From Paracoccus nototheniae (lineage in GTDB: Bacteria; Pseudomonadota; Alphaproteobacteria; Rhodobacterales; Rhodobacteraceae), in assembly GCF_004335005.1 (NCBI RefSeq), contig NZ_RQRT01000014.1:1-64000 (forward strand): a DNA stretch of 64,000 nt. The letters run 5' to 3'. This document shows positions 44,354 to 53,894 of this stretch, in pieces. A program made the position numbers and the translations under genes. Position 1 is the stretch's first letter; each line of letters begins with the position of its first letter. A model generated the notes under the pieces. That model saw nothing but the letters and a program-made list of their open reading frames with translations, made no database searches and was not told the origin of the DNA.

Positions 44354-44581
44354 GGGCGGGCCTCCTCTGTTGGCGCCAAAACAGTGATGCCCCCGTGGGC
44401 GCAACGCGCTGACGGGGGGGCGATCCCCGTACCCTACGGGGACCGGAAGGCGATGCTTCCGGGAATCTGAGATTGTTTAGCCAAAAGGCGCTGCCCTGTC
44501 AACGTCGGGCGGCCTTGTGGAAAACCCGCCGCCCCGGCGATCGGGATGGCGGGCGGGTCGGGTCGGTACGCCGTCTGGCGA
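44354..44581 (-). promoter_or_regulatory. azoR-ffh intergenic region with two tandem hairpins
   Basis: The 228-base gap has two adjacent perfect hairpins: CCCCGTA/TACGGGG around CCC at 44427-44443 and CCGGAAG/CTTCCGG around GCGATG at 44444-44463 (approximate edges). They lie downstream of azoR and upstream of ffh, both on the minus strand, and may form the azoR terminator or part of the ffh leader. No SRP RNA signature was found. Confidence 0.4.
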
Positions 44582-48789: not shown

Positions 48790-50175
48790 TTACTTGTAGG
48801 TGACTTTTTTGCAGGCTGCGGCGATCTCGGCGGGCGTGATCAGCGCGTGCTTTTCCAGATTGGCGGCATAGGGCATCGGCACGTCCTTGCCGGTGCAGCA
48901 GATGACCGGCGCGTCCAGATAGTCGAACGCGTTCTCCATCAGATAGGCCGAGATATGGTTGCCGATGGCGCCAACGGGGAAGCCTTCCTCGACGGTCACG
49001 CAGCGGTTGGTGCGCTTGACCGATGTCAGGATGGCGTCGTAATCCAGCGGGCGCAGGGTGCGCAGGTCGATCACCTCGGCCTCGATCCCGTCTTCGGCCA
49101 GCAGTTTCGCGGCCTCCAGCGCATGCGCCACGCCGATGCCAAAGCTGACGATGGTCACGTCATCGCCCGACCGCACGGTGTTGGCCTTGCCAAAGGGGAT
49201 AGTAAAATCGGGCAGATCCGGTATCTCGAAGCTGCGCCCGTACAGGATCTCGTTTTCCAGGAAGATCACCGGGTTCGGGTCGCGGATCGCCTGTTTCATC
49301 AGGCCTTTCGCATCCGCCGCCGAATAGGGCATCACCACCTTGAGGCCGGGGATCGCCGCGAACCATGCCGCGAAATCCTGGCTGTGCTGGGCACCCACCC
49401 GGGCGGCGGCGCCGTTCGGGCCGCGGAACACGATGGGACAGCCCATCTGGCCCCCCGACATGTACAGCGTCTTGGCGGCCGAGTTGATGATGTGGTCCAT
49501 CGCCTGCATGGCAAAGTTGAAGGTCATGAATTCGACGATCGGGCGCAGGCCCGCCAGCGCAGCACCGGTGCCGATACCGGCAAAGCCGATCTCGCTGATC
49601 GGTGTGTCCACGACGCGGCGATGACCGAACTTGGCCAGCATGCCTTGGGTGATCTTGTAGGCGCCCTCGTATTCGCCGACCTCTTCGCCCATCAGGAACA
49701 CGGTCTCGTCGCGCTCCATCTCTTCGGTCATGGCCTCGCGCAGGGCTTCCCGCACGGTCATGGTCTTCATCTTGGTGCCTTCGGGCCAGTCGGGGCTGCG
49801 CGGCTTGGGCTGAGGCGTCTTGACCTCTTCGATGGCGGACTGGCCGGGCTGGCCGTCGGGCTTGTCACTGTCGTCGGCCCTGGCCTCGGCGGGCTTTTCG
49901 GCTTTGGGGGCGGGGGCCGCATCGGCGCTTTCGCCCTCTTCCAGCAGCACGCAGATGGCTGTGTTCACGGCGATGCCCGCCGTGCCCTCGGCCACCAGCA
50001 GCTTGCCCATGATGCCTTCATCGACGGCCTCGAATTCCATCGTGGCCTTGTCGGTCTCGATTTCGGCGATGATGTCACCGGATTTGACCGTGTCGCCTTC
50101 CTTTTTCAGCCATTTGGCCAAAGTGCCCTCTTCCATCGTCGGGGACAGGGCGGGCATGAGAATTTCGGTTGCCAT
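48790..50175 (-). CDS. pdhB: Pyruvate dehydrogenase E1 beta with N-terminal lipoyl domain
   Basis: E1-beta subunit, 461 residues. Unlike the mitochondrial form it begins with its own lipoyl domain, nearly identical to that of PdhC ([37 protein letters not shown]), followed by a Pro/Ala/Asp linker and the transketolase-like domain from about residue 135 ([27 protein letters not shown]). This lipoyl-E1-beta arrangement is known in alphaproteobacteria. ATG 50175 follows GAGGGG. The lipoyl parts of pdhB and pdhC share DNA similarity and could recombine. Confidence 0.95.
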
Positions 50176-50188
50176 ATGTCGTGACCCC

Positions 50189-51223
50189 TCAGGCGTTTTC
50201 TTCGGCGCTGCCCTGGGGCAGTTCGGCGGCATAGATGTCGGTCCACAGCTCGTCCAGGGCGGGCTCGGGGCTTTCCTTGGCGAATTCGGCGCTGTCGTTG
50301 ACGATCTCCTTGATCTCCTTGTCGAGCGCTTTGAGTTCGTCCTCGGTCGCGTGGCTGCCGGTCAGCAGCATCTCGCGGATATTCTCGATCGGGTCGCGTT
50401 CGTCGCGCATCTTCTGCACCTCTTCGCGGGTCCGGTACTTGGCCGGGTCCGACATCGAGTGGCCGCGATAGCGATAGGTCATCACCTCGAGGATGTAAGG
50501 CCCCTTGCCGGCGCGGCAATGCGCCACGGCCTTTTCGCCCGCCGCCTTGACGGCCAGCACGTCCATGCCATCGACCTGTTCGCCGGGGATGCCGAAAGCC
50601 TCGCCCCGACCGAAGAAGGTCGTCGATTTGGTCGAGCGGCTGACCGACATGCCCATGGCATATTGATTGTTCTCGATCACGAAGACGATCGGCAGATCCC
50701 ACAGTTCGGCCATGTTATAGGTCTCGTAGACCTGACCCTGGTTGGCCGCGCCATCACCGAAATAGGTGAAGGTGACGTTGTCATTGCCCAGATACTTGTC
50801 AGCAAAGGCAAGCCCTGCGCCAAGCGGCACCTGCGCCGCGACGATGCCGTGACCGCCATAGAAGTGCTTTTCGCGGCTGAACATGTGCATGCTGCCGCCC
50901 TTGCCCTTGGAATAGCCGTCCTGACGACCCGTCAGCTCGGCCATGACGCCGCGCGCCTCCATCCCGCAGGCCAGCATATGGCCGTGGTCGCGATAGCTGG
51001 TGATGCGCTTGTCGCCCTCTTTCGCGCAGGCCTCGAGGCCCACGACGACGGCTTCCTGTCCGATGTAAAGATGGCAGAAACCACCGATCAGACCCATGCC
51101 GTAAAGCTGTCCGGCCTTTTCCTCGAATCGGCGGATCAGCAGCATGTCGCGATAGTATTGCATCAATTCGTCTTTAGAGACGTTCGAAGCCACCTCTGTC
51201 TGGGGGCTCGGTTTCCTGGCCAT
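50189..51223 (-). CDS. pdhA: Pyruvate dehydrogenase E1 alpha
   Basis: E1-alpha subunit, 344 residues, binds thiamine diphosphate. The TPP motif [20 protein letters not shown] begins near residue 178, and the phosphorylation-loop region [16 protein letters not shown] near 270 is conserved, although kinases are not expected in bacteria. TTGGAGGA before the ATG is a good ribosome binding site. First gene of the operon; pdhB starts 13 bases after its stop. E3 (lpd) is not adjacent. Confidence 0.96.
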
Positions 51224-52512: not shown

Positions 52513-52728
52513 TCAATCGGTGCGGCGCAGTTCCGAGCGGCCCTTGAGCACCTGATCGCCATCCGTCTGTTCGATCAGATAGGCGGGATCGGATGCGCTG
52601 GCCTTGCGGGTGATCGTGCTGCCCTTGATGGTCCGTTCGACATCCCGGGTAAAAATCTGCGTGATCTTGCCGCTGGCGGTGTGGCCTGCCCAATCCCATG
52701 CGACCTTGGTTCCCTTGCGCAGAATCAT
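52513..52728 (-). CDS. DUF2945 small protein
   Basis: A 71-residue protein of the DUF2945 (hypervirulence-associated, Tudor-like) family: MILRKGTKVAWDWAGHTASGKITQIF and ASDPAYLIEQTDGDQVLK match the family core. Function is unknown. The ribosome binding site GGAGG lies seven bases upstream and is enclosed in the 3' arm of a perfect hairpin (52732-52754). The gene lies directly downstream, in the same direction, of the anti-Shine-Dalgarno RNA array, so it may be the last gene of that transcript. The upstream open frame through the array is not a gene. Confidence 0.8.
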   Translation of the reverse strand: MILRKGTKVAWDWAGHTASGKITQIFTRDVERTIKGSTITRKASASDPAYLIEQTDGDQVLKGRSELRRTD

Positions 52729-52731
52729 GAT

Positions 52732-52754
52732 GCCTCCGACGAGCTGTCGGAGGC
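52732..52754 (-). promoter_or_regulatory. Hairpin hiding the ribosome binding site of the DUF2945 gene
   Basis: GCCTCCGAC and GTCGGAGGC form a perfect 9-bp stem with a 5-base loop; on the minus strand the GGAGG of the ribosome binding site is in the 3' arm, three bases before the ATG. It may block translation or act as a terminator of the array transcript. No T run follows, which favours the translation role. Confidence 0.6.
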
Positions 52755-52791
52755 AATGCGCGGCTATCTGATGTGGTTCCGGAAGGAAGGC

Positions 52792-52860
52792 GCGGCGACC
52801 TCCAGGGAGGAGGAGGGAGGTCGCCGCTGAACGCTGGCCCAGGGAGGAGGAGGGGCCGCG
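52792..52860 (-). ncRNA. CcsR/cuckoo-like small RNA candidate 6
   Basis: Last pair in transcription order. The hairpin at 52832-52860 (GGCCC/GGGCC plus CGC/GCG with a bulge) is followed by a perfect 12-bp hairpin at 52792-52827 (GCGGCGACCTCC on plus). Both loops carry CCTCCTCCC on the minus strand. It is a near-exact copy of candidate 4. Pairing of hairpins into one RNA is inferred from the known two-hairpin family. Confidence 0.72.
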
Positions 52861-52867
52861 TATGGGG

Positions 52868-52942
52868 GGCAGTACCGGCCCAGGGAGGAGGAGAGGCCGT
52901 ACCGCCAGCGCCAGATCCGGGAGGGAGGAGAGAACCCGGCGC
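52868..52942 (-). ncRNA. CcsR/cuckoo-like small RNA candidate 5
   Basis: Hairpins at 52908-52942 (CCGGG/CCCGG, loop with TCTCCTCCC) and 52868-52906 (GTAC-GGCC stem with a one-base bulge, loop with CCTCCTCCC), one base apart; about 75 nt together. Copy of candidate 3 with an uninterrupted CCCGG arm. Confidence 0.72.
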
Positions 52943-52976
52943 AACCGTATGCCGCGAATGAGGCGGCTATGAGAGC

Positions 52977-53045
52977 GCGGCGACCTCCAGGGAGGAGGAG
53001 GGAGGTCGCCGCTGAACGCTGGCCCAGGGAGGAGGAGGGGCCGCG
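52977..53045 (-). ncRNA. CcsR/cuckoo-like small RNA candidate 4
   Basis: Hairpins at 53017-53045 and 52977-53012, the latter with a perfect 12-bp stem. Both loops carry CCTCCTCCC on the minus strand; about 69 nt together. Nearly identical to candidate 6, 185 bases away. Confidence 0.72.
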
Positions 53046-53052
53046 TATGGGG

Positions 53053-53128
53053 GGCAGTACTGGCCCAGGGAGGAGGAGAGGCCGTACCGCCAGCGCCAGA
53101 TCCGGGAGGGAGGAGAAGAACCCGACGC
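53053..53128 (-). ncRNA. CcsR/cuckoo-like small RNA candidate 3
   Basis: Hairpins at 53093-53128 (CGGG/CCCG core, loop with TCTCCTCCC, one base longer than in candidate 5) and 53053-53091 (bulged GTAC-GGCC stem, bulge T in place of C). About 76 nt together. Confidence 0.72.
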
Positions 53129-53163
53129 AACCGTATGCCGCAGATAAGGCGGCTATGAGTTAT

Positions 53164-53233
53164 GCGGCGACCCCTGGGAGGAGGAGCGGGGCCGCCGCTG
53201 TTGCACTGAACCCGGGGAGGAGGTCGGGTTCGG
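53164..53233 (-). ncRNA. CcsR/cuckoo-like small RNA candidate 2
   Basis: Hairpins at 53206-53233 (CTGAACCCG arm, one G-T pair, loop with CCTCCTCCC) and 53164-53198 (11-bp stem with one mismatch, related to the GCGGCGACC stems of candidates 4 and 6). About 70 nt together. Confidence 0.72.
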
Positions 53234-53244
53234 GCGCAGCTTGG

Positions 53245-53317
53245 GGCGACATCCCTCAGGGAGGAGGAGAGGGGGATGTCGCCAGACCCGGGCCCCTGGG
53301 AGGAGGTAAGGGCCGGG
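53245..53317 (-). ncRNA. CcsR/cuckoo-like small RNA candidate 1
   Basis: First pair after the DUF1127 stop. Hairpins at 53287-53317 (GGCCC/GGGCC with flanking CCC/GGG) and 53245-53283 (perfect 11-bp GGCGACATCCC stem). Both loops have CCTCCTCCC on the minus strand; about 73 nt together. Confidence 0.74.
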
Positions 53318-53328
53318 AAAGGGAATTC

Positions 53329-53556
53329 TTAGGAAGCCGAGCCCCAGGCCGCTTCATGCGCCAAGCGGGTGATCATCGAACGGCTGATGCCCAGATCATC
53401 AAGATCGCGGGTGGTCAGCGCGTTGAGTTCACGCACGGTCTGGCGGTAAACGGCGCGGCGGGCGCGGTTTTCCTGCATCCGCTGGATCGCGGTCAGCAGG
53501 CGGCCACGCAGGCCGGCTTCGGCGGTGGCGTTCTGTGCTTGGGCGATAACAGCCAT
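53329..53556 (-). CDS. DUF1127 protein, CcaF1-like RNA-binding protein
   Basis: A 75-residue basic protein with the DUF1127 core VRELNALTTRDLDDLGISRSMI near the C-terminus (about residues 42-63) and an Arg-rich helix LLTAIQRMQENRARRAVYR before it. In Rhodobacter sphaeroides the gene in this position encodes CcaF1, which binds RNA and influences maturation of the co-transcribed CcsR small RNAs. Start 53556 has AAGGA eight bases upstream; the longer frame to 53688 has no such support. Expression from a heat-shock or oxidative-stress sigma factor is expected by analogy; only a weak RpoH-like CTTCAA with TCATGAT (53717-53744) was found. Confidence 0.88.
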   Translation of the reverse strand: MAVIAQAQNATAEAGLRGRLLTAIQRMQENRARRAVYRQTVRELNALTTRDLDDLGISRSMITRLAHEAAWGSAS

Positions 53557-53894
53557 TGTCGTATCCTTTCGGTTCATCTCGTCTGCGCCGTTCCCGGATT
53601 GGCCCGGCGTTTCGTTGAGTTGAAGATGGACCCTGACGCCCTCTGGCACAACGGACTCTTTCGGAATGCTGCCATGCAGCAATTGCATGACTGAGGCTGA
53701 CCTATCGCCGTCTTAGATCATGAAAACTTGTCACAAAATTGAAGCGATACATCCGTTAGCGATCACAGAAACACGGCAAAATCCCCGCTTTTCAAGGCGC
53801 TTAGCGGGGTCCGTGCCACCATTGTCGCAGGGGTGTTGAGACCTGGGCCGGGATGCTTCATGGTGGCCTGCACACAAAGACACAGGTCGGTCAC
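53557..53894. promoter_or_regulatory. Divergent DUF1127 / mrp intergenic region
   Basis: This 338-base gap holds the promoters of the DUF1127-small RNA unit (minus) and mrp (plus). The stretch 53710-53765 is AT-rich. On minus, CTTCAA and TCATGAT are 15 bases apart; on plus, TTGTCA near 53729 and ATACAT near 53747 are possible elements. All are weak. No other coding frame looks real. Confidence 0.35.

Follow-up and report, generated by a model that had tools for sequence, protein, structure and literature searches.

The minus strand of a 64,000-nt Paracoccus nototheniae sequence (hereafter the window) carries, at positions 52787-53321, an array of 12 hairpins with a shared loop motif, arranged in three blocks of four, and this array is a real, functional-looking member of the CcsR family in a species of Paracoccus close to P. 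hibiscisoli and P. marcusii. RNAs of the CcsR type are known from a few model species, and a literature search found no paper naming CcsR together with Paracoccus. The novelty claimed here is modest and lies in the variation of array length through recurrent duplication and in a proposed class of targets. Through such duplication, arrays in Paracoccus range from a few hairpins to 20 and would represent naturally occurring dosage variants of a post-transcriptional regulator; the survey also names a testable target class, namely uptake binding proteins whose genes have GGGAGGA sites.

Scanning of the whole window revealed 12 CTCCTCCC sites, all of them between 52805 and 53305 on the minus strand, and none on the plus strand; the loop has the form CCTCCTCCC in ten cases and TCTCCTCCC in two (at 52923 and 53108). 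Shuffled windows contained on average 1.5 and at most 5 such sites, compared to the 12 real ones, and dinucleotide-shuffled versions of the 540-nt array contained no more than 3. Upon folding, the motif was unpaired within a hairpin loop in all 12 cases, which bears out the claim of the first-pass annotation that 12 minus-strand hairpins share one loop in ten plus two variants. At -261 kcal/mol, the array folds more stably than its dinucleotide shuffles, which average -206 (sd 5; z = -10.8). Folding energy does not tell the strand, though, as the plus strand folds equally well.

Membership in the CcsR/cuckoo group, for which a covariance search had been recommended, was confirmed by that search. 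Six matches to the Rfam CcsR1 model (RF02791), 77-82 nt each, tile the array on the minus strand, and each comprises two adjacent hairpins with CCUCCUCCC-type loops, in agreement with the six two-hairpin units originally proposed. Only unit 2 (hairpins 3-4, 53159-53240) passed the gathering cut-off, with 66.4 against 65.3 bits, while the five other units scored 16.9-40.2 bits in a permissive search, under the cut-off. The latter are unit 1 (hairpins 1-2, 53241-53321; 40.2 bits, E = 4.6e-8), whose hairpin 2 covaries in relatives; unit 3 (hairpins 5-6, 53051-53132; 16.9 bits, E = 0.38), a weak match in which both loops lie in hairpins; unit 4 (hairpins 7-8, 52972-53048; 37.5 bits, E = 3.1e-7); unit 5 (hairpins 9-10, 52870-52946; 23.7 bits, E = 0.0036); and unit 6 (hairpins 11-12, 52787-52863; 39.8 bits, E = 6.4e-8), the last hairpin of which is the counterpart of the terminator hairpin of relatives. 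The array did not reach the cut-off of the alpha-r14/NfeR1 model (RF02344; best 44.4 vs 58.8 bits). Two motif-free spacer hairpins on the minus strand, GCCGC-CTTATCT-GCGGC at 53137-53153 and its copy GCCGC-CTCATTC-GCGGC at 52951-52967, separate the three four-hairpin blocks, and the CATAGCCG stretch before the first of these spacers recurs at internal block ends genus-wide.

The array was expected to lie 3' of a DUF1127 gene, and such a gene, encoding a CcaF1-like protein of 75 aa (53329-53556, minus strand; Pfam PF06568, E = 1.6e-12), immediately precedes it in the same orientation. Among named species, P. hibiscisoli and P. marcusii have the most similar protein (96%). The array follows the gene in nearly all Paracoccus loci read, and in relatives the DUF1127 match usually ends 20-30 nt, in query-match terms, ahead of the first motif. 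Upstream of the gene lies a candidate RpoH-type promoter, TTGTGC-N17-CATCTT (53623-53651, minus strand), with both boxes conserved in the genus alignment. A TTG in the -35 box is a conserved feature of RpoHI/RpoHII promoters in R. sphaeroides (PMC3441632), and by its TTG the Paracoccus candidate would fit this promoter type; a scan for sigma-70 promoters gave no match. Just upstream of this candidate, at 53665-53682 on the minus strand, a palindrome-like element, TTGCTGCATGGCAGCATT, is conserved in 37 Paracoccus loci with DUF1127 more than 80% identical and is possibly a regulator site.

Regarding the 3' end, the last hairpin of most relatives is followed by a U-tract, while at the end of internal copies the CATAGCCG spacer takes its place, as is expected if the last hairpin alone terminates transcription. 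In the window the U-tract is degraded to GCCTTCCTTCC, and that of the nearest relatives is degraded as well. A standard terminator scan, which takes loops of 3-8 only and is blind to these hairpins, gave no match. Weak termination ahead of the downstream Hva1_TUDOR (DUF2945) gene (52516-52728, minus strand) could possibly allow read-through from the array. The Shine-Dalgarno (SD) site of this gene lies inside a 10-bp hairpin formed by GCCUCCGAC and GUCGGAGGC (52732-52754, minus strand), where an anti-SD stretch of its own masks it; comparable hairpins occur in three close relatives.

Conservation of the hairpins was assessed on 33 distinct sequences of hairpin 2. In these, 98.3% of cells pair, compared with 88.6% in shuffled controls and 42-66% in slid ones, and changes on both sides were found at 8 of the 11 pairs of the stem. 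The loop core TCCTCCTCCC is invariant over all 33; because only sequences with an intact motif had been selected, this invariance is in part a product of the sampling, which does not apply to the covariation of the stem. These data uphold the suggestion that the loop stays constant while the stems change.

Arrays in which three or more hairpins lie close together are present in 120 of 125 Paracoccus genomes and, in the family sample, in 86 of 247 genera. Among 100 loci of the genus read in detail together with the window, the commonest hairpin count is 12, while 8, 10, 14, 16 and 20 also occur, and few Paracoccus genomes have less than 8. Of the 94 arrays with at least six hairpins, 83 have an even number of motifs, as predicted by two-hairpin units. 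The array of the window is therefore ordinary for Paracoccus, and the possibility that a 12-hairpin array is unique was rejected by the genus and family surveys. Its description as expanded is valid relative to R. sphaeroides, with six RNAs compared to four, but not relative to its own genus, where 12 is the modal count; another genus of the family (locus L190, genome G288) has 26 CTCCTCC motifs over 1.2 kb with a tandem period of about 140 bp, above every Paracoccus array read. Cassettes of a DUF1127 gene and hairpins with 4-8 motifs were also observed on plasmids of Paracoccus sp. AK26 and P. jeotgali, and P. acridae has additional copies on other contigs (loci L348, 2248-2458; L349, 2183-2523; L025; L026); this cassette may be mobile.

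The longer array reflects tandem duplication, a feature which the first-pass annotation overlooked. It had described the stems as unrelated, which does not apply to all of them, since hairpins 5-8 and 9-12 belong to two near-identical copies of a block of about 185 bp (52972-53156 and 52787-52971), each starting with the motif-free hairpin followed by four motif hairpins. The two copies differ at about ten positions including a 1-nt indel, and the motif spacing between them is exactly 185; overall, blocks 2 and 3 of the window are 93% alike. In three P. marcusii-like loci (L088, L089 and L094), blocks 2 and 3 within one genome are only 70-80% alike, whereas block 2 is 99% alike between these loci. 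In the window, L091 (97-99%) and L099 (89-100%), by contrast, the greatest likeness is between copies of one and the same genome. Duplication or homogenisation has thus taken place several times and separately.

The loop of the array is complementary to the extended SD site GGGAGGAGG. In the host genome the pattern GGGAGGA-N3-10-ATG occurs at 96 sites, compared with 2 for the reversed pattern. At least 29 of the 82 ORFs behind GGGAGGA sites encode substrate-binding proteins, a sum which presumes no members common to the counted families (DctP, 11; SBP_bac_1, 6; Peripla_BP_4, 6; Peripla_BP_6, 3; TctC, 2; SBP_bac_5, 1). For the control AAGGAGG the fraction was 1 of 57 ORFs, as determined from the 25 families listed and from likely exported proteins checked one by one, and the contrast is significant (Fisher p = 4e-7). 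This enrichment agrees with the situation in S. meliloti, where the anti-SD loops of NfeR1 silence ntrB and two transporter mRNAs (PMC10746234). The GGGAGGA site is no rarer in 30 genomes of the family that lack arrays of three hairpins or more than in 30 array-rich ones, the median ratio to AAGGAGG being 1.57 in the former and 1.29 in the latter. Co-evolution of the number of sites with arrays was not seen in this comparison, the ratio being slightly higher in the array-lacking genomes; the repertoire of sites is therefore not shaped by arrays, the enrichment provides only a target hypothesis, and the bias of GGGAGGA genes towards substrate-binding proteins may have another cause. Two further features of the window may be mentioned here. 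Pyruvate dehydrogenase E1 alpha/beta-like genes, named from their translations, follow the array at a distance of about 1.5 kb (48790-51223, minus strand), with TTGGAGGA as the presumed pdhA site, and an effect of CcsRs on the pyruvate dehydrogenase complex is reported for R. sphaeroides (PMC8625941). An Rfam match to the ffh sRNA (RF01793) above the cut-off is located at 44382-44434 on the minus strand.

The locus is probably a ccaF1-CcsR operon with an RpoH-type promoter, whose six processed two-hairpin RNAs occlude extended SD sites and whose length has grown by duplication. The array, its strand, family match, synteny, covariation, duplication and the enrichment of sites come from the present analysis, while promoter use, processing, binding and repression are proposed by analogy with R. 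sphaeroides and S. meliloti. In R. sphaeroides, CcsR1-4 are co-transcribed with ccaF1 from an RpoHI/RpoHII promoter, processed by RNase E, and interact with Hfq (PMC10253847, PMC8625941, PMC8307010). In Paracoccus, a stress (RpoH-type) promoter would likewise place the DUF1127 gene and the array on one transcript, and cleavage of this precursor, probably by RNase E aided by the DUF1127 protein, would release six two-hairpin RNAs, each about 77-82 nt long. Every loop would present single-stranded CCUCCUCCC for pairing with mRNAs having an SD extended to GGGAGGA(GG), blocking their translation, and the likely targets would be found chiefly among the substrate-binding proteins of TRAP, ABC and tripartite tricarboxylate transporters. 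Recent tandem duplication of the four-hairpin block would mainly alter dosage. A more specific proposal, tentative and with the balance of judgement against it, is that repeated, separate tandem duplication of a four-hairpin block resets the dose of an anti-SD RNA that lowers solute uptake under stress, by pairing with the extended GGGAGGA sites of many transporter binding-protein genes.

Alternatively, instead of silencing individual mRNAs, the array could chiefly titrate another RNA or a protein such as the DUF1127 protein, Hfq or RNase E, or it could brake translation globally, with the number of repeats setting its capacity as a sponge. The same loop in all units, allowing little target discrimination, and a repeat number that varies while the loop is unchanged are consistent with such a role, as is the finding that CcaF1 is an RNA-binding protein affecting CcsR maturation (PMC10253847). 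It is nevertheless considered unlikely, since the loops of S. meliloti NfeR1 repress specific mRNAs via base pairing (PMC10746234) and flhR is targeted by the CcsRs of R. sphaeroides (PMC8307010). About equally doubtful is neutral drift of copy number by slippage or recombination, with only one or two units mattering: hairpin number does differ among close species (8 in L090, 16 in L091, 20 in L099) and new copies are near-identical, but older diverged blocks retain the loop and the paired stem, and only few genomes fall below 8 hairpins.

A role of the plus strand, with the GGGAGGAGG repeats as ribosome sites, or of long overlapping ORFs, is highly improbable. ORFs of 205 aa (minus strand) and 241 aa (plus strand) do cross the repeats, and the plus strand folds equally well; however, a 1-nt indel distinguishes the two blocks, and the block spacing of about 183-188 nt in relatives shows no multiple-of-three constraint, while the minus strand agrees with the Rfam match, with the synteny to DUF1127 and with the U-tracts of the terminators. 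A plus-strand or coding function was thus rejected, there being no frame conservation and the Rfam match and synteny favouring the minus strand.

Among known systems, the Paracoccus locus comes closest to the CcsR1-4/ccaF1 operon of R. sphaeroides (RF02791), in which a DUF1127 gene is likewise followed on the same strand by tandem two-hairpin RNAs with CCUCCUCCC loops. The Paracoccus array differs in having six units rather than four, in that eight of its hairpins stem from a recent 185-bp tandem duplication, and in its motif-free spacer hairpins between blocks and weak U-tract after the last hairpin. The alpha-r14/NfeR1 RNAs of Rhizobiales (RF02344; SmelA075/SmelA099, 'cuckoo') resemble the array in their identical CCUCCUCCC loops and variable stems, but have three or four hairpins, and NfeR1 has its own promoter. 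A single modular family whose members differ in hairpin number has already been suggested (PMC3927594).
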